A DNA stretch of 30,594 nt, from positions 1 to 30,594 of the IMG/VR virus record IMGVR_UViG_3300045008_000167; one strand, given 5' to 3'. Within the stretch, counting starts at the first letter, position 1. Each line of letters starts with the position of its first letter. Shown piece after piece: positions 8,847 through 30,594 of the stretch. This DNA is from a virus. Made by a program: the position numbers and the translations under genes. Under the pieces are notes generated by a model that did not search any database, was not told where the DNA came from, and saw only the letters and a list, made by a program, of their open reading frames with translations.

Positions 8847-9227
8847 CTATCTCCTTTCGCTCAATCGGCCGAGCTCTTGGCGGCGACCGAATTCGAAAAT
8901 GCCGCCATTCACCTGCCCGAAATATCTGGCCCGTATTGCGGGAATCTCTATCAGGGGCGGTCCGCCCTCCAGTGCCATCTCGACGGCGTACTCGTTACCA
9001 TCCGCGCCTCGCAAAGTCCATCGATATTTGTTATCCGTGTCTCGCAGCACGATGTTGACGCCATCATATAGGCCCGCCTTGATTTCGAGCACATCCAGGC
9101 CCTCGCCAACGCCGTCATACTCGATACCGACGCACAGGGACTTGCCGGACTTGAGCGATTCAAGGACCGCATCACCCGCAGTCGTGGCGAACCTGTATCG
9201 CATATCGGTAGAGAAGTTGACGATCAC
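8847..9227 (-). CDS. Hypothetical protein between portal and protease
   Basis: A 126-residue protein starting at GTG 9227, which overlaps the portal stop as GTGA. It is predominantly beta (KSLCVGIEYDGVGEGLDVL, YRWTLRGADGNEYAVEMALE). I do not recognise its family. Its place between portal-MuF and the protease suggests a role in head assembly or a minor capsid component, by context only. Confidence 0.6.
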   Translation of the reverse strand: MIVNFSTDMRYRFATTAGDAVLESLKSGKSLCVGIEYDGVGEGLDVLEIKAGLYDGVNIVLRDTDNKYRWTLRGADGNEYAVEMALEGGPPLIEIPAIRARYFGQVNGGIFEFGRRQELGRLSERR

Positions 9228-11344
9228 GCCTCTGCCTCTAGGCGTTTCAAGATTGCCCGCTCCCGCTCATTCCACGCTTTGACGAGCTCGGCCTTGAATT
9301 TTTTCTCATGTGGGTCGAGCGCCTTGCAGTAAGCATCCCAACGCTCGATGTGGGCGGGACTACCATAGGCAATGGCTTTCTCGTCGAACGAGGGGAGGAG
9401 GCTGCATCTGCAATTGCAATCCTCGCTCGCAAGCCCAATGAGCCCAGGCGCGGGGCCGCTCCCTGCACCAACCACGAAATTCTGCGTCATCGGAATCGGC
9501 TCGGCATTATACCTTCCGTGCGCGCTGACATGTGTTTCTCTCGTGCGTTCGTCCAAGGCGGAAAGCCAGGACTTTTTCTCGATTCCCGCCTGCAGATATC
9601 CCTGCAGCGCCCCCCCATTCATCGCCCCGCCCATCTCCGTGCGGGCGATGAGCTCGGAGCGATATCCTCGGGCGTCGTCGAACACATTCGTCACTCGATT
9701 CATCAGGTCGGTCGTGCCCTCGCCCGCCTGATATCCCTCAACCAGCGTTGCCTTGAGGCTTTGCCAGGTTGTCGCCTCGAAGCTCTCATCGCTGGTCTTA
9801 ATGCGGTTGACTCGCTCGGCGAGAAATTCCACGACGGCCGGATTCGTCACATCGAATGCGATGCCAGCGCCAACCTCGATGACGGCGTTACTGCCTCCGG
9901 AGAGCACGGCCTCGGCAATGAACGACTCGCTGAGGTCGGCGGCCTTGGTCAGCCATTCCTCGAGCTCACCGATAACCCGATTCGCCCATTCCGAGGCGCT
10001 CATCTTAGTAACAACAGGCAGCGCCTTCTGCTCTGCCTTGGCGGGGAGTAGAGTCGAAGGCGCTTGTGATGCAATTGGTATCTGCGACAGGTCTGCCACA
10101 GCAATGAAGTTGCGGGGCACCAGGTAATATGCCGTGCCGTCCATCTCTTCATACCCCTCGAGGCGACGGAACTCGTCAACTCGCAACGTCCCTGCGCGCA
10201 TGTTTTCAAGATTACGCTTATGCTCGAATTCCTTATCGCTCGTGTTCGGCCGCTGCAATTCAAGAAATGCCCCGGCGGGCTTGAATTGTGGAAGAAGCTG
10301 GCGATTCAACGCCCGCTCGAACATCGTGATATGTGGAATAAGCGTCATCGAATTGAAGATGTAGATGCTCGTTTCCGCGGTGCTGCGGTTGACGTCGCCA
10401 GTGTCGCCCATCAATAGCTTAGGCGTGCCAATCACGCCGCCTATCGCTGCCCGCCGGAAAGTGCGGCTTTCGATGTGCTCACTGTCCTTGGCGTTCTGCG
10501 AAAGCTGATGGATTTTCATCCCGCCGCCGATAAAGGCAGGCTTGAAGGCATTCCAGAATCCGCCGTAATGGCTTTCCCACCACTGCTGCAGCTTCTCCAT
10601 CAGGCCCTTCTGGCCGTCCTCGAGGATACCGGGATGCTCAATTGCGATGCCCGGAACGGCGTTGCGCCAGTAAAAGTTTTTCTCGTGCTTCGCCGCGTAC
10701 TCGTCGGCTTCGGCTTCATCGGCACATGCCTCGGCGATACCCTTACCGCGGCCATACGGATCTTCAGGATCGGCGTACTTGAATGCGATGATTTCGCTCT
10801 GCGGCACCGGTGGGAGCATCTGACCACCGAAGCCCCGGCCAATCAATTGAATCCCGTAGAATGGACTTCCCAAAGACGGCGTTGCCACCACCCAATGAGG
10901 GGGTACCGGCCAGAGTTGCTTCGGCGGACCGTTCGGCACATCGCGTTCGATAATCCAGAACCATTCTCCCGCCATCGTCGCCCACGTGTCGCAGAGCATG
11001 ACAATCTGAAAAATATCAAGATATGGATTGCTGTCCAAGAATTTGAACAGCTCATGCTCTGGACCGAGCTCCTTCTCCTTGGACCTTGATGTCCAGAGCT
11101 TCGCGTTTTCCAGGGCGACGGCCAATCCGTATGCGATAGGTCGCTCCGCTGCAGCAATCCAAGGCGAGGAGGTCGCCATCTTGAGCCATTCCCGCTGCGT
11201 GCGTCTTGGGGCCTGAGCAAAGAGATGCGTAAACGACCGGGACAATGCAGACTTGAGATTGCTGGCACTCGTCGCCGCTCGAATAGCGATGTCTTCCATC
11301 CTGCGGTGCAGGTTTGCGCCCAGGCGTCGCAGGAAATTGCTCAC
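9224..11344 (-). CDS. Portal protein fused to MuF/SPP1 gp7-like minor head domain
   Basis: A 706-residue protein. The GTG at 11344 is preferred because it overlaps the terminase stop as GTGA and follows AGGAG; a reading from 11395 would overlap the terminase by about 50 bases. Residues ~40-430 are an HK97-type portal: KEKELGPEHELFKFLDSNP, MAGEWFWIIERDVPNGPPKQ, GGVIGTPKLLMGDTGDV, PHITMFERALNRQLLP. This is the dodecameric channel at the packaging vertex. After a linker, residues ~540-690 match the MuF domain: GYRSELIARTEMGGAMNGG, KSWLSALDERTRETH and SEDCNCRCSLLP. MuF proteins are minor head components, usually encoded separately; here they are one polypeptide. Confidence 0.9.
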   Translation of the reverse strand: MSNFLRRLGANLHRRMEDIAIRAATSASNLKSALSRSFTHLFAQAPRRTQREWLKMATSSPWIAAAERPIAYGLAVALENAKLWTSRSKEKELGPEHELFKFLDSNPYLDIFQIVMLCDTWATMAGEWFWIIERDVPNGPPKQLWPVPPHWVVATPSLGSPFYGIQLIGRGFGGQMLPPVPQSEIIAFKYADPEDPYGRGKGIAEACADEAEADEYAAKHEKNFYWRNAVPGIAIEHPGILEDGQKGLMEKLQQWWESHYGGFWNAFKPAFIGGGMKIHQLSQNAKDSEHIESRTFRRAAIGGVIGTPKLLMGDTGDVNRSTAETSIYIFNSMTLIPHITMFERALNRQLLPQFKPAGAFLELQRPNTSDKEFEHKRNLENMRAGTLRVDEFRRLEGYEEMDGTAYYLVPRNFIAVADLSQIPIASQAPSTLLPAKAEQKALPVVTKMSASEWANRVIGELEEWLTKAADLSESFIAEAVLSGGSNAVIEVGAGIAFDVTNPAVVEFLAERVNRIKTSDESFEATTWQSLKATLVEGYQAGEGTTDLMNRVTNVFDDARGYRSELIARTEMGGAMNGGALQGYLQAGIEKKSWLSALDERTRETHVSAHGRYNAEPIPMTQNFVVGAGSGPAPGLIGLASEDCNCRCSLLPSFDEKAIAYGSPAHIERWDAYCKALDPHEKKFKAELVKAWNERERAILKRLEAEA

Positions 11345-12783
11345 AAGAAGAAGGCTCCTGATTTCTGCCGCGCGGGAGCGGCAAAGGCGATGCACAGTGC
11401 ATCTGCTCTGTCCGGGCTTGCCACGTTTCGTTTTCTCATGTCTTCCTTGGATTCCAGCATTATCTGTCCTTTCGAGTTGGTCTTGTACCGCAAGCCGCTT
11501 AGTTGACCCGCTAGTTTCTTATCGGGAGGATGAGCTATGCTGCCCTCCTCGTAGCGTTTTCGCAGGCCCCAATAGTCTTCCGAGCGCTTATCCGCGAAGC
11601 GCTCGGCATTGCGGGCCCTATTGCCGCCGTTGTACTCCTCAATGCCAGGAACGCCCTGCTCCTTGAGCCGGTCATAAGGCCCTGCACCCATCCCCGGGAT
11701 GTCGATGCGGATTCGCTCTGCCCCGATCTCCCGCCGCCTGGAGACAATCACGCCCGCCGTTTCCATCGTGTCCTGTTTACGCCTGCAGTCCAGGGGTGCG
11801 GCAATTTCGCCGCACCTTGCAACCAGCACCGTTTCGCAATCGCCATACCTTGCCACGTCTACACCGAGCTCAACGGGATGATCTCTTTCTGCCCTCTCCC
11901 ACCATCGTTGTTCCCGATTAAGATTTTCCCATCGAATTTCAGCCGCCTCGATCCAGTGCAGCGGGATGAGTTGATCGGGCGACTCGCTCGGGAAATTGCC
12001 CCTGACCCGGCTCTGCCAGAATGACGATTCCTCGCCGAATTCTTCGAGGATATCCGCCACCCAGGAAGACGATATGAGATACGGCACTACGATCGGCGCC
12101 GCCCGCAAGAGGGCCATCTTCTCCGCCTTTGTCTCCAGGCTCTCGTATTCGGCCTTGAGCGGCGCCAGGTTCGGCGTGTCGAGGGCGTCGATGGTGATGC
12201 AATTGTAGAACGCCCGCTTCGAGTTGAAGGCATCGTAAAACTCGCCCTGCGGCCTTGTGGGATTCCCAAGGAGCAGGAGCCGGACTTCACCGCTCGCCAT
12301 AATGCCCCGGATAGCCTCGAAGATTGAGTCCGGCACGCCGCTCGCTTCATCGACCACCACGAGTATGCGCCTTGCGTGGAATCCCTGAAAGCGGTCAGGG
12401 TCGTCCGTGCTCAGGCCGAATGCGTACCAGTTATCCTTGATGCGCAACATCGGCGTCTTCATCGGCTTGCCGAAAACATGAGTCCTAGCTTTGGGGTACA
12501 GAGTCCGAATCTCTCCCCATAGCAGCTTATTGACCTGGCGCCACGTAGGCGCCGTGGTCAGCACAATGCTGTCGGAGAAGCTATTCAAAAACCAACAGAC
12601 GATTCCGGCAGCGACGTGCGTTTTTCCACCGCTGTGACAAGACTTGACGGCCGTTCTGGGGTTGTCCCGCACTGATTCAATTATTTCAATCTGCTTACAC
12701 CAGTATACCTCCTTAAAGACCGAGCCGAGCCACCACACTGGATCCCCGACTTGCCGATCATAGACTTCCAGATTCCTTGGCAT
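11341..12783 (-). CDS. terL: Terminase large subunit (packaging ATPase and nuclease)
   Basis: A 480-residue protein. Walker A is SCHSGGKT (residues 48-55), followed by LTTAPTWRQV. Walker B with the catalytic acid is ILVVVDEASG (140-149), and the coupling motif LLLGNPTRPQGEFYDAF follows. The C-terminal RNase H-like nuclease has GVDVARYGD (307-315), IRIDIPGMGAGPYDRL (about 358-373) and SPDRADALCIAF near the end, giving the three acidic metal ligands. It cuts and pumps DNA into the procapsid through the portal. The gene overlaps the small subunit by 26 bases and the portal by 4 bases. Confidence 0.95.
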   Translation of the reverse strand: MPRNLEVYDRQVGDPVWWLGSVFKEVYWCKQIEIIESVRDNPRTAVKSCHSGGKTHVAAGIVCWFLNSFSDSIVLTTAPTWRQVNKLLWGEIRTLYPKARTHVFGKPMKTPMLRIKDNWYAFGLSTDDPDRFQGFHARRILVVVDEASGVPDSIFEAIRGIMASGEVRLLLLGNPTRPQGEFYDAFNSKRAFYNCITIDALDTPNLAPLKAEYESLETKAEKMALLRAAPIVVPYLISSSWVADILEEFGEESSFWQSRVRGNFPSESPDQLIPLHWIEAAEIRWENLNREQRWWERAERDHPVELGVDVARYGDCETVLVARCGEIAAPLDCRRKQDTMETAGVIVSRRREIGAERIRIDIPGMGAGPYDRLKEQGVPGIEEYNGGNRARNAERFADKRSEDYWGLRKRYEEGSIAHPPDKKLAGQLSGLRYKTNSKGQIMLESKEDMRKRNVASPDRADALCIAFAAPARQKSGAFFL

Positions 12784-13273
12784 TGCACTCCCGCTCCGCC
12801 TCGCACTCCCGCAGCCATTCTTCGTGTGTCAGTTCAACGTTCTTCGTTTCGGACTTCTTCACGATGAGACCCAGGAGCTCGCATCGATTTGCGATACACC
12901 GCTCTACTCCGGCCAGATATGCAGGATTGCCGTCTCGCTCTTCTTGCCGGAGGCTCTGTTCTTCCTTGTCTTTACCTCGCTTAGCTTGCTTGATAACGCG
13001 CTGCTGCAAACTCCGCTCCCAAGCCGCCCAGTATGTGCGTTCCAGGTTGTCCCAATTGGCGACCTCTCGCGCTCGGCGCTCATCGAAGTTAACGACGCCA
13101 GATTCGAACCAGCGTTTCCTCAGTGCTACAAGGTCATACGCTATCTGACGAGGCGAGAGATGGAGCGTCTCCGCCATTTTCCACTGCGGGATCCCCTCGC
13201 AGTACATCCGTGAGAGCTCGAAAATGTCCCGCTCGTATTGCGCTTTTGAGCGCGTAGCCCCGCCCTTTCTCAT
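12758..13273 (-). CDS. terS: Terminase small subunit
   Basis: A 171-residue protein, start ATG 13273 preceded by GGGGG. The N-terminus (EDIFELSRMYCEG-like segment, then QWKMAETLHLSPRQIAYDL) is a helix-turn-helix typical of small terminase DNA-recognition domains. The middle is a long helix (WDNLERTYWAAWERSLQQRV) suited to oligomerisation, and a charged tail contacts the large subunit in this family. Position directly before terL supports the call. The pac or cos site is often inside or near this gene but no obvious one was identified. Confidence 0.8.
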   Translation of the reverse strand: MRKGGATRSKAQYERDIFELSRMYCEGIPQWKMAETLHLSPRQIAYDLVALRKRWFESGVVNFDERRAREVANWDNLERTYWAAWERSLQQRVIKQAKRGKDKEEQSLRQEERDGNPAYLAGVERCIANRCELLGLIVKKSETKNVELTHEEWLRECEAERECNAKESGSL

Positions 13274-13434
13274 GCAACCCCCATGGCGCTGCAATCGCCC
13301 TTCCCCAATTCAAGCGGATTCAATCTTTCCCAATATCGCACAATCGGCCTCAATCCAAGGAGCATGTGAGCGATATTGAGGTTTGACGTTGATCGCTTGT
13401 CGAGAATATCATGTATCCAGAAAGGCGGTGTCTC
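13274..13434. other. Divergent intergenic region between terS and the TudS-like gene
   Basis: About 160 bases separate the minus-strand terS from the plus-strand DUF523 gene. It contains an inverted repeat CAATATCGC (13331-13339) / GCGATATTG (13370-13378) just upstream of the plus-strand promoter, with nested CCTCAAT / ATTGAGG halves. It could be an operator, or part of a packaging recognition site. No promoter for terS was seen, consistent with read-through from 15131-15159. Confidence 0.4.
13383..13412 (+). promoter_or_regulatory. Sigma70-type promoter for the TudS-like gene
   Basis: TTGACG (13383-13388), an 18-base spacer and TATCAT (13407-13412) point rightward, each hexamer matching 5 of 6 consensus bases. 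Transcription would begin near 13419, about 16 bases before the ATG at 13435. The inverted repeat 13331-13378 lies just upstream. Confidence 0.65.
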
Positions 13435-13857
13435 ATGCGCAGTATCATCGTGTCTCGCTGTCTCATCGGGGATAGATGTCTATTTCACGGCTTCTATGCC
13501 ACATTCGCCAAAGATACCATCAGCCTCTTGGCGAATCGGTTCAAAATCATTCCTGTTTGCCCAGAAATGCTAGGGGGGATGTCCTGTCCTCGTCCACCAT
13601 CCCGACTCAGGGATGGCAGGGTCTTTTGCCACAAGAGAGACATCACTCACATTTTCGAATTGGGCCGAGATCGTGCCCTTGTCGAATTGAAAGGTAGGGA
13701 TGTTGTTATGGGCATAACTCTGCAAGGGTCACCCTCCTGCGATCCCATCACGGGAATCTTTGGCAGCGCGCTTGCGAAGCTTCTTCCCGTCATCGCTGCT
13801 CGCCGTGGAAATGGGTGGGAATCCATTCTGCTTGACATGCTCAAGGAACTTGGATAA
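13435..13857 (+). CDS. DUF523 / TudS-like [4Fe-4S] thiouracil desulfurase homologue
   Basis: A 140-residue protein, one of the few genes on the plus strand. The start at 13435 (MRSIIVSRCLIGDRC) has AAGGCGG upstream and matches the family N-terminus. Family motifs are the first Cys in VSRCLIGD (C9), PVCPEMLGGMSCPRPP (C42, E44) and GSPSCDPITGIFGSALAKLL (S99, C102). In characterised TudS three Cys hold a [4Fe-4S] cluster, and Glu and Ser assist removal of sulfur from thiouracil or 4-thio-UMP; the equivalent residues all appear present. It lacks the usual Gly after the third Cys. Its last 129 bases overlap the minus-strand ParB/PAPS-reductase gene tail to tail. It looks like a moron with its own promoter. 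Substrate in this phage is unknown. Confidence 0.8.
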   Translation: MRSIIVSRCLIGDRCLFHGFYATFAKDTISLLANRFKIIPVCPEMLGGMSCPRPPSRLRDGRVFCHKRDITHIFELGRDRALVELKGRDVVMGITLQGSPSCDPITGIFGSALAKLLPVIAARRGNGWESILLDMLKELG

Positions 13858-15069
13858 TTCCGGTTCTCCGCGATCTGCCATCTCAGAGAAATCTTTACAA
13901 GACGGACTCCATTTGCCCACGCCTTTTTTGGCCTCCCATTCCAAGAGCACTCGCCAGAGCCCAGGGAACCACTTCCGCAATGCGCTATAGAAAACTTGAC
14001 GCCCGCCAGGGCACATATAGCAAGCCGTCCGGGGAAACCCTAACTTATAGCCCCACCAAATAGGGATGCCACTCGCATAAAGTTTCTCTTGAACCTGCTC
14101 CTTTGTCCACTCAAACATAGGAAAATAGACCTGATAGCCACGATATTCCTTGAGTTGTGTTTTCCCCGACGCAGGCTTCGCCTCGCCCTTATTGCCTCCA
14201 CCTATCTGGAGAATATCTTCCGGAGACCCCAGCTCCGCCGCAAACGCATCTACGGGCAAATGCAACAGATCTTCCTGACACCACGGAAACTGATGAAACG
14301 GCCATCCCTTTTCGTCGAGAAGACAGAAGAAATCCTTCTTAGGCTTGAGGATGATATGCTGCACCCCAAGGAATTTGGCTACCTGCTTAGTATGGTACGC
14401 CATAGCGGGGAATTCTACGCCTATATCCACATAGGCGGCATAGACTGTTTGCGGATCGAAATTCCTGGCCGCCCATATCAATGCCATCGACGAGTCTACA
14501 CCACCAGAATATGAGCATACGACATGCTTTTTTCCGGCAAAAAGCTGCTTCTCTATCTCAGTGAGATCCAATTCTCCGGCAACATTAAATTGCTGAAAAT
14601 CGACAAGCGCAGACCTTCCCGCATCATTGTCGCCCTGCAGATCCCCCAGCATCTCCCCCAGCTCGTCCTGCGACCATAACCCCTCAAAGTTTACTCCCGC
14701 CTCAAGGTCAGCCTTTATCTGGTCGAAATTCCACTCCAGTGAAACCTCGCTGCTGCGATTATCTGCATATGCGAGCTCTCGGGCCTTGCCGCCCTGGGAA
14801 AGGTCCAGGTCGGTGCGCTGCACGACGACGAGTTCCTTCCCGTCCGTCTCCACGGTGCGTATCGGGAGCCCTATATCAACAGCGGTCTCAAGGGTCTTGT
14901 TACCTGCGATTACCACGCCGTGTTTGTCGGCGAGGATAGAGCGACCGGCCCCATACTTGCGCAATGAGTCATCGAGGACGCGGATACCCCGCTCGGTTCC
15001 CTTGTTGGCATTCGCAGGGTCGGATCGCAGGTCCTCTATGCTCTCAATTCGCTTCGCCTTCCTAGTCAT
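13729..15069 (-). CDS. ParB-like domain fused to PAPS-reductase-like (N-type ATP pyrophosphatase) domain
   Basis: A 446-residue protein starting at ATG 15069 with GAGGAG 4 bases upstream. Residues ~1-110 form a ParB/sulfiredoxin-type domain (GIRVLDDSLRKYGAGRSILA, then HGVVIAGNKTLETA). Residues ~180-400 form a PAPS-reductase/ATP-pyrophosphatase domain with PP-loop SYSGGVDSS (186-194), DIGVEFPAM, FPWCQEDLL and a C-Y-M-C motif at 350-353. The IbrB/IbrA proteins of E. coli pair these same two domains as separate genes, and DndC of DNA phosphorothioation has the second. Here they are fused. The reaction is unknown. It heads the late operon, right after the promoter and terminator at 15086-15159, and converges with the TudS-like gene. 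Confidence 0.85.
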   Translation of the reverse strand: MTRKAKRIESIEDLRSDPANANKGTERGIRVLDDSLRKYGAGRSILADKHGVVIAGNKTLETAVDIGLPIRTVETDGKELVVVQRTDLDLSQGGKARELAYADNRSSEVSLEWNFDQIKADLEAGVNFEGLWSQDELGEMLGDLQGDNDAGRSALVDFQQFNVAGELDLTEIEKQLFAGKKHVVCSYSGGVDSSMALIWAARNFDPQTVYAAYVDIGVEFPAMAYHTKQVAKFLGVQHIILKPKKDFFCLLDEKGWPFHQFPWCQEDLLHLPVDAFAAELGSPEDILQIGGGNKGEAKPASGKTQLKEYRGYQVYFPMFEWTKEQVQEKLYASGIPIWWGYKLGFPRTACYMCPGGRQVFYSALRKWFPGLWRVLLEWEAKKGVGKWSPSCKDFSEMADRGEPELSKFLEHVKQNGFPPISTASSDDGKKLRKRAAKDSRDGIAGG

Positions 15070-15085
15070 CGTGCTCCTCAAAATC

Positions 15086-15109
15086 AAAAAACCCCGACTT
15101 CTCGGGGTT
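15086..15109 (-). terminator. Intrinsic terminator immediately downstream of the late promoter
   Basis: On the minus strand AACCCCGA pairs with TCGGGGTT over 8 bp with loop GAAG, followed by a run of T (complement of A 15086-15091). It lies about 15 bases after the predicted start of the promoter at 15131-15159 and about 55 bases after the regulator gene stop. It can end early transcription and also attenuate the late promoter. Confidence 0.85.
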
Positions 15110-15130
15110 CTCGAAACTTTCACGCCTATC

Positions 15131-15159
15131 ATGATAACACACTTGACACGGAAGGTCAA
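15131..15159 (-). promoter_or_regulatory. Candidate late-operon promoter
   Basis: On the minus strand TTGACC (15159-15154), a 17-base spacer and TATCAT (15136-15131) form a good sigma70-type promoter starting near 15124. An inverted repeat CTTGAC (15142-15147) / GTCAAG (15155-15160) overlaps the -35, and the palindrome TATCATGATA covers the -10. Both look like regulator contacts. The sequence TGTGTTATCATGAT is almost identical to the XRE promoter at 30119-30132. Confidence 0.75.
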
Positions 15160-15163
15160 GATG

Positions 15164-15775
15164 TTAACTTTTTTGAGGGCGCTCTCCCATCATTCTCAGC
15201 GCATCGTACAGGTTCGCCTCGCTCCTACAGTCGACTTCCATTTTCTCCAGGATAATGTGGATCGACACCTCCCGCCTGCGCTCGTAGCTCTCCCGCGGCT
15301 TATACGTCGAACAGGACGGCTGCGAGTTTTCGATATCGCCCTCAAGCCAATCCTTCATCGCCCAGCAATAATATCCGTCGGCGTTGTTGCTGTTGGCTAT
15401 ATGAGCGCACGACAAGCAGCGCGGAACTCTCCTGTTCATACGAGCCAGGATTGAACGCGCCAACCCCGACTTACGCTTCTGTATCGCCGACTCCCCGCAG
15501 CGATAATGCTGCGCCAGGGCGAATTCGCTGAATCCCGCCAGATACGAAAGCAGCAAAAAATGATATTGCCGCTCATGCAGAGTCTCCAGAGCGCAGCAAA
15601 AATCCACCAGCGCGTTCGCCAGGCGGATCCTCGCATCGCTCGCGGAATGGGCGCGCTGTTCGCATTGATTCTCATCGTCGAGTTGCAGTTTTCCTCCGTC
15701 GAGGAAGCTCAGGAAGTATGGCAGATTGTCTAATATACCGCGAACCGATCCGATTGTGTAGATTTCCTGTTTCAT
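15164..15775 (-). CDS. Sigma-region-4-like regulator, candidate late-gene activator or antiterminator
   Basis: A 203-residue protein, ATG 15775 with GAGGAG upstream. Residues ~68-112 (LHERQYHFLLLSYLAGFSEF, ALAQHYRCGESAIQKRK) have the pattern of a sigma-70 region 4 / ArpU-like helix-turn-helix. A second part has C120, C123, C137 and C155 (CLSCAHIANSNN..YYCW), a possible metal site. ArpU-type proteins regulate late genes in Gram-positive phages. Its stop is 5 bases from the -35 of the late promoter, the classic place for a late regulator such as lambda Q or ArpU. Whether it activates initiation or works at the terminator is not visible from the sequence. Confidence 0.65.
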   Translation of the reverse strand: MKQEIYTIGSVRGILDNLPYFLSFLDGGKLQLDDENQCEQRAHSASDARIRLANALVDFCCALETLHERQYHFLLLSYLAGFSEFALAQHYRCGESAIQKRKSGLARSILARMNRRVPRCLSCAHIANSNNADGYYCWAMKDWLEGDIENSQPSCSTYKPRESYERRREVSIHIILEKMEVDCRSEANLYDALRMMGERPQKS

Positions 15776-17431: not shown

Positions 17432-18529
17432 TCATTCTTCCTCCTCGAACATTATCAACTGACAATTCACCTCATCATTAAGACAATGCGGAGAAAACCA
17501 TATAACCTCGCGCTTCCTGTTTTCTTTGCCTTTGGCATTTCCCGTGTGTGCCATTCCTCCAGGTGCCGTCCAATAATATGGGGTCCATCCATATTCAGCG
17601 AGAGATTCATGCTCTCCAACATATCCGCAAAGGGCGATATGCAGTAATGGATTACTCCCGTGCTTAATACAGTATTCACGCACATCATGCGCTACGGTAA
17701 GATTTTCTTCAGAATAGATATTTTTGTCGCGCTCCGCTTCGGAGGAATATGGTGGATCGAAGAATAGTCCTGTTAATCCCTGCCTAGTTGTTGGTGATGG
17801 ACCGCACACGCGTTGCCAATCACCGCAGCAGACGCGGACGCGCTCAAGTCTTTTTGCAAGAACTTCGAACCATGCGCATAACCCCTGTTCGCCCGAACCC
17901 GCATCACCCTGCCCTACGTGAAGATGGACGCGCCTCCGCTGCACACCCCGCCCTGTATCGCCGATATGGACGAGCTTCCGATTCACACCCTGCCCTGCAT
18001 CGCCGATATGGACGCGCCTCCGATGCACACCATGCCCTGCATCGCCGAGATGGACGCGCTTCCGATTTATACCATGCCCTGCATCGCCGAGATGGACGAG
18101 TTTCCCATTAACACTACCCCATGGACCATTGCCAGAACAAAACTCGCCACCAATCCAACACGCCATACCCCAGACCCACCAGCCTGCAATTCTTACATCA
18201 AAGTAATCGGGATCGCCCTCTATCTGTGATACCAAGTCGTTTTTGCGATTGACAAGCCAGATATGTCGGGCGTGTAAATCATTTTCGTTGACAGGCCAAT
18301 TCGCATAGTGAGCAACCTGTTCGGGGTCAGTCTTCAGAGCGCGCCAGAAGTTTGCAAGATAAGCATCTTTGTCGTTCACCGTTTCGATTCTTGGTTCGTG
18401 CGGACGATTAAGCAGTACCGCGCCACTTCCGAAGAATGGCTCGACGTAATTGGGTACATCGCCGAATCGCTGCCAGACGATAGGAGCTACTTGGCGCTTT
18501 CCTCCGAACCAGGGGAACGGTGCCTTCAT
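17432..18529 (-). CDS. D12-class N6-adenine DNA methyltransferase with internal 14-residue repeats
   Basis: A 365-residue protein starting at ATG 18529 with GAGGAG upstream. Motif I is near the N-terminus (PFPWFGGKR, residues 5-13), then YVEPFFGSGAVLL (29-40), ETVNDKD (49-55) and the catalytic DPPY (258-261), the order of Dam-type alpha-class enzymes. It methylates adenine in a short DNA target. The region where target recognition usually lies holds about five tandem copies of a 14-residue unit (RRVHLGDAGHGV-like, residues ~141-204), making the protein longer than a typical Dam of about 270-280 residues. Likely role is shielding phage DNA from restriction. Confidence 0.9.
   Translation of the reverse strand: MKAPFPWFGGKRQVAPIVWQRFGDVPNYVEPFFGSGAVLLNRPHEPRIETVNDKDAYLANFWRALKTDPEQVAHYANWPVNENDLHARHIWLVNRKNDLVSQIEGDPDYFDVRIAGWWVWGMACWIGGEFCSGNGPWGSVNGKLVHLGDAGHGINRKRVHLGDAGHGVHRRRVHIGDAGQGVNRKLVHIGDTGRGVQRRRVHLHVGQGDAGSGEQGLCAWFEVLAKRLERVRVCCGDWQRVCGPSPTTRQGLTGLFFDPPYSSEAERDKNIYSEENLTVAHDVREYCIKHGSNPLLHIALCGYVGEHESLAEYGWTPYYWTAPGGMAHTGNAKGKENRKREVIWFSPHCLNDEVNCQLIMFEEEE
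17918..18109 (-). repeat. 42-bp tandem repeats inside the adenine methyltransferase
   Basis: Four clear and one degenerate copies of a 42-bp unit encode VH(L/I)GD(A/T)G-x-G preceded by R/K-rich turns. Copies differ at a few positions, so the array is being kept in frame while diverging. Copy number could change by slippage or recombination without breaking the reading frame. Confidence 0.85.
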
Positions 18530-18572: not shown

Positions 18573-18980
18573 TCATGAGTTAAATCGCTTCGGCTTTGCA
18601 AGTGCCGTCCTCGCCTTGATATCAATCCACTTCTTTATCTCGTGAAACTCAAATTCTTCTTCCTCTAGCGTGTCGATGCGGAAGAACTTTCCACTCCAAT
18701 TCCGCCAATCCGCTTGCATCCCCTCGCTCTCTCCCAGCGTGGCATCATATAGGAGCGCATCACAGGATCGCATCCATTCGTGCCCGAGCTCTATCCCCAT
18801 CTGGCGCTCCTCGGGATTAGCGTCGTCGAGGAATTCTGTGAAATATACGTGTGGGGCCATTGGGATGCCGCCCAATAACATAACCTTCCGACAGAGATAC
18901 CGTGCCCGTTCAGCGAACTTCGCCTTCTCTTTGGGCGTCCGGCCTTTGAGCCGAGAGCAGATGAAAATATATGGTTTCAT
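18573..18980 (-). CDS. DUF7768/DUF4406-like nucleoside deoxyribosyltransferase-fold protein
   Basis: A 135-residue protein from ATG 18980, coupled by an ATGA overlap to the upstream fragment and preceded by repeated GAGGAG. Residues 1-12 (MKPYIFICSRLKG) form the first strand with nucleotide-binding loop. Then come KAKFAERARYLCRKVMLLGG, IPMAPHVYFTEFLDD and ALLYDATLGESEGMQADW. This is the typical Rossmann-like layout of phage DUF4406/DUF7768 proteins, related to nucleoside 2-deoxyribosyltransferases. The substrate is not known; a role in nucleotide metabolism or NAD-type signalling interference is possible. Confidence 0.75.
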   Translation of the reverse strand: MKPYIFICSRLKGRTPKEKAKFAERARYLCRKVMLLGGIPMAPHVYFTEFLDDANPEERQMGIELGHEWMRSCDALLYDATLGESEGMQADWRNWSGKFFRIDTLEEEEFEFHEIKKWIDIKARTALAKPKRFNS

Positions 18981-19123
18981 TCCTCCTCCTCCTCGATTCG
19001 GGCACCGAGCACCTCGCAGCAAAACTCGTCCCATTCAACGTATCCGACTGTACGCCATCCGAAGAGGTATTTTGTTCCCCAGATACCGCAGCCAATGCCG
19101 GAAAAGAGCGAGAGTTCATGCAC
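18977..19123 (-). pseudogene. Truncated N-terminal fragment of a C5-cytosine DNA methyltransferase
   Basis: A 48-codon frame from GTG 19123 (GGGAG upstream) reads VHELSLFSGIGCGIWGTKYL, then FGWRTVGYVEWDEFCCEVLG. This matches motif I and II of Dcm-type enzymes, normally over 300 residues. The frame ends after five Glu codons whose GAG repeats also serve as ribosome binding site for the next gene. The second Gly of the F-x-G-x-G-G motif is Cys here, so SAM binding is probably damaged. No other methyltransferase motifs follow in any frame. It is a relic of a lost methyltransferase or a very small product kept for translational coupling. Confidence 0.7.
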
Positions 19124-23866: not shown

Positions 23867-24645
23867 GGATTCAAGATCTCGTAGAAGTGTGAGTTGCGCT
23901 CTTCGACGGGGATATCGTTCGGGTCGTCGGGGACACGGTCGCCCACGGCTTTGACATCAGCGCGCTCAACATTCTCGATGAATTTGTCGAGCCACGCCTC
24001 TGGTTTTTTCAGCGTCAATCCTTGAGCGATGACCGCTCGTTCGGCGCGATGGAGCAGGGAGAGTAATCGGTCCTCGGAGTAGGTTTCGAGTAAGGCTCTG
24101 ATATACGGGGCCCTTACTCCTCGAAAAACACGACAACGACCGAGCCATTCACCAAGGCGACCACTGATTGTTAAGGAGGGGGTAGGGGGTGGTTGTTCTT
24201 CTCTGATCTTTTCTTCTCTACTCTTCTCTACTCTACTCTTCTCTTCTCTTCTCTCGCTCTGCACATTTTGCGACGTATTTGCGACGTGTTTAACACGTGC
24301 AGCGCACATTCTCTCTCTATTTGCCTCCCGACGGCGCCACAACTTGCCTCCGTACTCCTCCCAATCGTGAACCTTCCCGTCAGGGTCAACAAACCCAGGT
24401 TGTCCTCCGGTCCCGCAATCGGTCAGTGCTCCCCTCAGCGACGCCTTCTTGCCGGTCCATCCGCACCCATCGTCGATGTCTTCGTCGGTGAAAGGGGAGG
24501 TATCTCCATCGGGAGCGTATAGGATGACCCACCACCAGAATACGTGCAAAAGCCCGATTGTTTCTCGGATATTGAGGCCCAGAAGACGGGCCAATTTTTT
24601 TGTCTTTGGGTGATCTCGAAGTTCGGTGTGACTTTCTATGTACAT
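23863..24645 (-). CDS. Replisome organizer / replication initiator-like protein
   Basis: A 260-residue protein from ATG 24645 with GGAGG 11 bases upstream; a TTG at 24693 overlapping the previous gene is less likely. The N-terminal domain (YIESHTELRDHPKTKKLARL, LGLNIRETIGLLHVFWWWV) is the winged helix found in phage replication initiators. A charged low-complexity linker (EEKSRVEKSREEKIREEQPP) is followed by a helical C-terminal part (WLGRCRVFRGVRAPYIRALL). It directly precedes the DnaB-type helicase, so it likely binds the origin and recruits or loads the helicase. The linker DNA is a long purine tract. Confidence 0.75.
   Translation of the reverse strand: MYIESHTELRDHPKTKKLARLLGLNIRETIGLLHVFWWWVILYAPDGDTSPFTDEDIDDGCGWTGKKASLRGALTDCGTGGQPGFVDPDGKVHDWEEYGGKLWRRREANRERMCAARVKHVANTSQNVQSERREEKSRVEKSREEKIREEQPPPTPSLTISGRLGEWLGRCRVFRGVRAPYIRALLETYSEDRLLSLLHRAERAVIAQGLTLKKPEAWLDKFIENVERADVKAVGDRVPDDPNDIPVEERNSHFYEILNP
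24194..24260. repeat. Long polypyrimidine/polypurine tract in the replication initiator gene
   Basis: About 65 bases of the plus strand are almost pure C/T, with repeated CTCTTCT and CTCTACT units, giving purine repeats on the coding strand that encode the Glu/Lys/Arg linker. Phage origins are often inside the initiator gene, so this is a candidate origin or unwinding element, or simply a codon-biased charged linker. Confidence 0.55.
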
Positions 24646-30484: not shown

Positions 30485-30528
30485 CCCGACAAGTACCCGA
30501 CAAGTACCCGACAAGTACCCGACAAGTA
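30485..30528. repeat. Four perfect 11-bp direct repeats (iteron-like)
   Basis: CCCGACAAGTA is repeated four times without spacers, 93 bases upstream of the excisionase-like gene. A period of 11 bp is close to one helical turn, so all copies face the same side of the DNA. The unit length is not a multiple of three, arguing against coding repeats. Likely binding sites for a replication, excision or regulatory protein. The rest of 30393-30594 shows no clear gene or promoter. Confidence 0.85.
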
Positions 30529-30594
30529 CTGAAATTTTTCGTAACAGGGAGGGATGGAGACCTATTCGCCTGATAATACACGAGAATGATTCAA

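Follow-up and report, generated by a model that had tools for sequence, protein, structure and literature searches.

A gene for a loop-deleted TudS-like desulfidase and a gene in which a ParB-like domain is fused to a PP-loop/PAPS-reductase-like (PAPSr) domain are coupled in viruses and prophages. The pair was followed up from an IMG/VR virus contig of 30.6 kb (the window, here the whole stretch of DNA analysed). TudS genes lacking one loop adjoined a ParB-PP-loop gene in 37 of 38 testable clusters from viruses and prophages, as against none of 67 testable clusters of looped TudS, 62 of them cellular (Fisher p 1e-27, a descriptive figure since the sequences are related). The original prediction, made from the window alone, had joined a DUF523 gene to a ParB-PAPS reductase and added that the link could be accidental; co-occurrence of the two proved strongly positive and the pair recurs across unrelated viruses, so that reservation was dropped. 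The favoured interpretation, held tentatively at a probability of about 0.4, is a mobile viral sulfur cassette of two genes: the ParB-PP-loop enzyme would place sulfur on nucleic acid, and the trimmed TudS would act on the same mark.

The TudS-like gene lies at 13435-13857 on the plus strand and encodes a single-domain protein of 140 aa. Its open reading frame spans 13411-13857, with ATG 13435 as the likely start and 13411 as an alternative. The protein matched PF04463 (2-thiour_desulf, DUF523) at 67.1 bits against a Pfam cut-off of 34.7, and no DUF1722 was found in it with Pfam. All 31 aligned members matched PF04463 and no other Pfam model. In TudS the cluster cysteines are Cys 10, 43 and 104, and the catalytic residues are Glu45, Ser101 and Ser103 (PMC10611767). 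The intact C9, C42, C102, E44 and S99 that the original prediction had read from this plus-strand gene are all present in the sequence, together with S101, which corresponds to Ser103 of TudS. Structure prediction agreed, with an AF2 model (pLDDT 94) that has the TudS fold and finds solved TudS structures (PDB 6z96/6z92) as its sole matches (TM 0.80-0.82, E<=5e-7).

Loop state was scored by alignment to PDB 6z92. This superseded classes built on regular expressions, by which many cellular proteins and the viral L042 had been called loop-deleted. Residues 109-122 (TudS_A numbering), including Tyr110, are missing from the window protein and from all 43 loop-deleted viral sequences, and are present in 78 of 80 cellular TudS. 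Since this loop is missing, the window protein is classed by sequence as a member of a divergent PF04463 subfamily, and belonging to the family does not in itself demonstrate thiouracil desulfuration. Tyr110 and Tyr18 sandwich the thiouridine sugar in docking models (PMC10611767); in loop-deleted members Tyr18 is mostly Trp and Asp19 mostly His. C10, C43, C104, E45 and S101 (TudS numbering) are conserved across the aligned viral members with one exception, and loss of cluster cysteines among homologues, a concern raised with the original prediction, was confined to that sequence. The exception, L235 (4719-5123), is a paired loop-deleted TudS whose third cluster Cys is Gly (SPSGD), by natural loss or sequencing error. 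With the sugar-holding loop lost and the cluster and catalytic residues kept, loop-deleted TudS may perform the same chemistry in a more open site, on a different or larger substrate. Loop loss was seen in two cellular proteins, L182, which is paired and lies in a probable prophage, and L194, a chromosomal-looking gene that has no PP-loop partner on its 4.4-kb contig. L194 (968-1957) is a short-loop TudS fused to what appears by eye to be a ModE-type HTH tail, and is possibly a regulator using its TudS domain as a sensor. Other apparent fusions of TudS (the long frames of L011, L022, L025 and L042) were set aside as open-frame extensions in which no convincing extra domain was seen by eye.

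The partner gene occupies 13729-15069 on the minus strand and encodes 446 aa. Its frame is open over 13729-15159, and a Shine-Dalgarno sequence (GAGGAG, at about 15074-15079) supports a start at ATG 15069. The fusion matched PF01507 (PAPS_reduct) at 44.7 bits and phrog_424, phrog_498 and phrog_620, the last two through its ParB-like N-terminus. ParB homology was borne out by the family profile, which matched ParB 4umk and Noc 7nfu at E<1e-10; the ParB part and the linker are poorly modelled in the predicted structure. The window ParB domain shares 49-66% identity with ParB domains from phages. Two of these (L039 and L040) are fused to N6/N4 DNA methylases, so this part seems to be a module that DNA-modifying enzymes have in common.

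The PP-loop motif (S188-GGxD-S193) and C264, C350 and C353 show little or no variation across the paired family. Both features also occur in phage PAPSr proteins without TudS, which ruled out their use as marks of the paired enzyme. A Foldseek search with the PP-loop protein returned CysH (6vpu) and an APS reductase (2goy), and also TtuA and LarE, and the profile touched GMP synthase, QueC and NAD synthase. No NCBIfam equivalog model, including that of the sulfate-assimilation reductase (CysH) family, reached its cut-off for the window protein. Because the ATP-type SGGxDS loop is intact, family knowledge favours adenylation chemistry over PAPS reduction for this enzyme.

A single-sequence scan already showed the two nearest IMG/VR relatives of the window TudS (38% identity) lying tail to tail with a ParB-PAPSr gene. 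The wider scans behind the tallies were read with profile HMMs made in this analysis and with loop state from the 6z92 alignment; clusters were formed at 90% identity, and a record was testable if long enough for its neighbourhood to be judged. Among the 37 paired clusters, 28 were convergent, 7 codirectional and 2 divergent. The one unpaired cluster, L011, was dismissed as a counter-example because its 62-kb contig does carry the ParB-PP-loop gene, at the opposite end. Three further loop-deleted TudS clusters end at a contig edge and stand outside the 38. Seen from the other gene, TudS was present in 35 of 37 testable clusters of PP-loop genes scoring >=200 bits and in 0 of 28 scoring <100 bits. 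The PP-loop HMM had been trained on paired members, and two tests blind to TudS were therefore added. A PAPSr-only search that used no TudS information covered 399 + 297 + 289 cellular genomes (about 980). It yielded three strong copies from two genomes, of which one had already come up in the TudS scan. Each of the three adjoined a loop-deleted TudS; a weak copy had no adjoining TudS, and the 399 genomes, all of one phylum, held no strong copy. For new viral contigs the prediction was written beforehand, and TudS stood beside the PP-loop gene in 6 of 8 strictly testable cases, with L243 and L264 as the exceptions. A natural comparison set for what TudS contributes is formed by L243/L290 and L264, ParB-PP-loop fusions in the same pre-terminase position without TudS. 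A viral loop-deleted TudS without a PP-loop gene was never found in records long enough to judge. Since the PP-loop enzyme occurs without TudS and no viral loop-deleted TudS turned up by itself, the dependence is one-sided: TudS needs the PP-loop gene and not the reverse.

Some members of the paired set deserve separate mention. Among the best isolated-phage matches of both window proteins was Methanoculleus virus Blf4 (L4768), where they fall in adjacent genes. In this cultured lytic archaeal virus the pair (gp05-gp06, L004 1242-2939) is codirectional and lies beside the terminase. In its record gp05, which is a ParB-PP-loop protein, is annotated as a 'DNA modification methylase', and the TudS as hypothetical. 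An Akkermansia MAG (genome G010; L182, L224 and L225) holds the cassette twice, on separate contigs and in all but identical form, probably in related prophages. In L026 (4798-5943), in-frame stops (one TGA and one TAG in the full match) part the ParB from the PP-loop half, and the gene is split, broken or recoded.

As a rule the pair immediately precedes terminase or portal genes, whose strand also carries the PP-loop gene. These adjoining genes fall in at least five unrelated PHROGs (9, 38, 2 and 15, and portals 21 and 64). The trees of the two partners conflict, which indicates that partners have been exchanged. In the TudS tree the window grouped with L006-L008 (support 100), and in the PAPSr tree it was excluded from the L006-L008 group (AU p=2e-8, for a group named after quick trees had been viewed). 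L003 likewise joined L012 in the TudS tree (96) and L002 in the PAPSr tree (99). Strict co-evolution of TudS and PAPSr was rejected, their distances correlating weakly (Mantel r 0.22, p 0.003). That partners have been exchanged and then found together again argues for selection on the combination.

In the window, the TudS gene converges on the ParB-PP-loop gene as originally described, and the coding sequences overlap by 129 nt from stop to stop (13729-13857). Antisense control through this overlap, also part of the original prediction, is only a possibility, given that 9 of the 37 paired clusters are not convergent. The promoter assigned to the TudS gene (TTGACG-18-TATCAT, 13383-13412, plus strand) held up in part: it is a sigma-70-like candidate matching the consensus at 10 of 12 positions, but such sites are just mildly enriched in the window (5 observed against 2.2+-1.5 in shuffles), which leaves it plausible and unproven. 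On the minus strand, the leader of the ParB-PP-loop gene (15070-15159) holds an extended -10 promoter candidate (TTGACC-17-TATCAT with TG, 15131-15159) followed by a strong hairpin resembling an intrinsic terminator (15087-15112; fold z-score -3.74 over 15070-15124) about 18 nt before the start codon. By its sequence this leader looks like an attenuator or antitermination gate heading the late operon. Just upstream of it, an HTH-like stretch was noted by eye in a 203-aa gene (15164-15775) whose product could be the late regulator.

After the ParB-PP-loop gene, the minus strand runs through a small HTH-like gene, the terminase large subunit, the portal and head genes. The small gene beside TudS (12758-13294, minus strand; weak phrog_645) precedes the large terminase and probably encodes the terminase small subunit. 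The terminase large subunit (11341-12783, minus strand; phrog_2, E 5.9e-40) and a portal protein with a Mu-F-like head morphogenesis domain (9224-11395, minus strand; PF04860 and PF04233) make up the packaging module downstream of the pair. To call the TudS gene a moron, as had been done, undersells the arrangement, since a conserved cassette of two genes leads into the packaging module.

Elsewhere in the window, a DUF7768 protein (18573-19034, minus strand) is similar to nucleoside 2-deoxyribosyltransferases and is another possible base-handling enzyme of the same virus. A D12 methyltransferase gene (17432-18529, minus strand) contains a 42-bp tandem repeat (17922-18114, 4.6 copies, 86%) encoding 14-aa units (GDAGHGVNRKxVHL...) in mid-protein. 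TCTTC is repeated 11.6 times within the replication-initiation gene (24197-24254), and a perfect 11-bp repeat (CCCGACAAGTA, 4.1 copies, 30485-30529) lies near the contig end, where iterons are possible.

Both proteins are variants of known enzymes, TudS on one side and SspD/DndC-like PP-loop enzymes on the other, and their combination was absent from the open literature searched. Stand-alone TudS (DUF523, a thiouracil and 4-thio-UMP desulfidase, PDB 6z92-6z96) has the same fold, three Cys and equivalents of Glu45 and Ser101; the viral protein differs from it by the lost loop, the exchanges at positions 18 and 19 and the pairing with ParB-PP-loop. The phosphorothioation writers DndC, SspD and BrxP share the PP-loop PAPSr-like domain, and DndC the three-Cys site; here the domain is instead fused to ParB and has a desulfidase partner. 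Those of SspD and BrxP were the defence models nearest to the PP-loop protein, and they matched weakly (window SspD 2e-7 and BrxP 3e-7; L010 SspD 6e-11; no DndC model). PADLOC, applied to 12 window proteins outside the head and small genes, detected no Dnd or Ssp partner (DndD/E or SspB/C, cysteine desulfurase). IbrA and IbrB carry PAPSr-like and ParB-like domains in separate genes. Compared by domain types alone, the present system has the same types but is fused and coupled to TudS. Phage fusions of ParB to DNA methyltransferases (phrog_498; with a methylase in L039 and L040) occupy a similar genome position, and differ in their catalytic domain, which here is PP-loop/PAPSr instead of a methylase. 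In open-access PMC text no paper coupling DUF523/TudS with ParB-PAPSr was found. PAPS is absent from the main text of a ParB-CTPase survey (PMC12704722), and neither the PP-loop gene nor TudS is discussed in those passages of the Blf4 paper that the search retrieved.

From these domains and their arrangement we infer sulfur chemistry on nucleic acid and the substrate. In the proposed mechanism, the PP-loop domain would use ATP to adenylate a nucleic-acid target on which sulfur would then be placed, with a three-Cys Fe-S cluster possibly relaying the sulfur, much as in DndC/SspD or TtuA-type enzymes. The ParB domain, found on DNA methylases in related phages, would direct the enzyme to phage DNA at a late stage of infection, shortly ahead of packaging; the target is probably phage nucleic acid, with DNA the probable form. 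The trimmed TudS would act on the same sulfur group, most likely by removing it, either as an eraser or in cleaning up mis-placed or recycled thiolated nucleotides. Writer and TudS would be under separate, often convergent expression. The intact SGGxDS and three Cys, the desulfidase active site, the convergence and the one-way dependence all fit the opposite arms of a sulfur system that the original prediction proposed; against this, SGGxDS and the three Cys are also found outside the pair. A narrower version, a virus-encoded sulfur writer-eraser for DNA bases in which the ParB-guided PP-loop enzyme thiolates genome bases before packaging and the loop-deleted TudS reverses this, is at present doubtful. 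To our knowledge, reversible thiolation of viral DNA bases of this kind has not been described in any virus.

The main rival, unlikely in its own right, makes TudS a sulfur donor. The TudS [4Fe-4S] cluster would take up sulfide from 4-thio-UMP, set free as host tRNA decays, or from another thionucleotide, and TudS would deliver it to the PP-loop enzyme's three-Cys cluster, standing in for a cysteine desulfurase. TudS prefers 4-thio-UMP and forms a [4Fe-5S] intermediate (PMC10611767), and DndC, whose three Cys bind a 4Fe-4S centre, obtains its sulfur from a cysteine desulfurase (PMC10853773). The genes are adjacent, and the seven codirectional clusters of the 37 suit co-expression and a donor as well as an eraser. 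However, no viral member retains the Tyr110 loop, which contributes to gripping the nucleotide's sugar; genes that converge and overlap are ill suited to making both proteins together; and some PP-loop genes have no TudS. An eraser or clean-up role is preferred because TudS depends on the PP-loop gene, 28 of 37 clusters converge and the mononucleotide-binding loop is gone.

It is distinctly unlikely that the system is aimed at the host, with TudS de-thiolating host s4U-tRNA or free thionucleotides, thereby altering stress or defence, and the PP-loop enzyme altering host nucleic acid. The precedent is RudS, a TudS-DUF1722 protein for tRNA s4U de-modification that likewise has a TudS domain, acts on nucleic acid and occurs in a phage (1H12; PMC11417400). 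Unlike RudS, the viral proteins have no DUF1722, all 31 aligned members being PF04463 alone, and the phage RudS_vir keeps a loop at the site deleted here and has no ParB-PP-loop partner in the stretch examined. The failure to find viral loop-deleted TudS alone also speaks against a host target, as do the position beside packaging genes and the methylase-type ParB domain, which point to phage DNA. PP-loop enzymes are chemically diverse, and the fusion could make a non-sulfur modification or carry out an ATP-dependent acyl or amide transfer with TudS as an Fe-S or redox partner; this is given a slim chance, with the TudS cluster ligands and catalytic Glu and Ser conserved and PAPS-reductase/SspD the closest family. 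Accidental neighbours at a terminase-upstream hot spot collecting unrelated cargo are highly improbable: such sites are a common kind of cargo site, and a ParB-methylase also lies near it in L030 and L024, but against this stand the counts of 37/38 and 0/67, re-pairing in different orientations and independent confirmation in prophages.

The preferred sulfur cassette bears on how such genes are read. An orphan viral PAPS-reductase-like gene is commonly listed in virome studies as 'cysH' sulfur-metabolism cargo; at least for the ParB-fused branch, the gene would belong to nucleic-acid chemistry instead. A new TudS subfamily is defined, with a predictable change of substrate. The question is testable now, since the cultured Blf4 of Methanoculleus bourgensis carries the pair. 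The pattern across bacterial and archaeal viruses points to an undescribed viral system for sulfur on nucleic acid. If the writer-eraser version is true, viruses mark their genomes with sulfur and also encode an enzyme for taking the mark off; this would bear on how phages evade restriction, and on phosphorothioate or thio-base defence.
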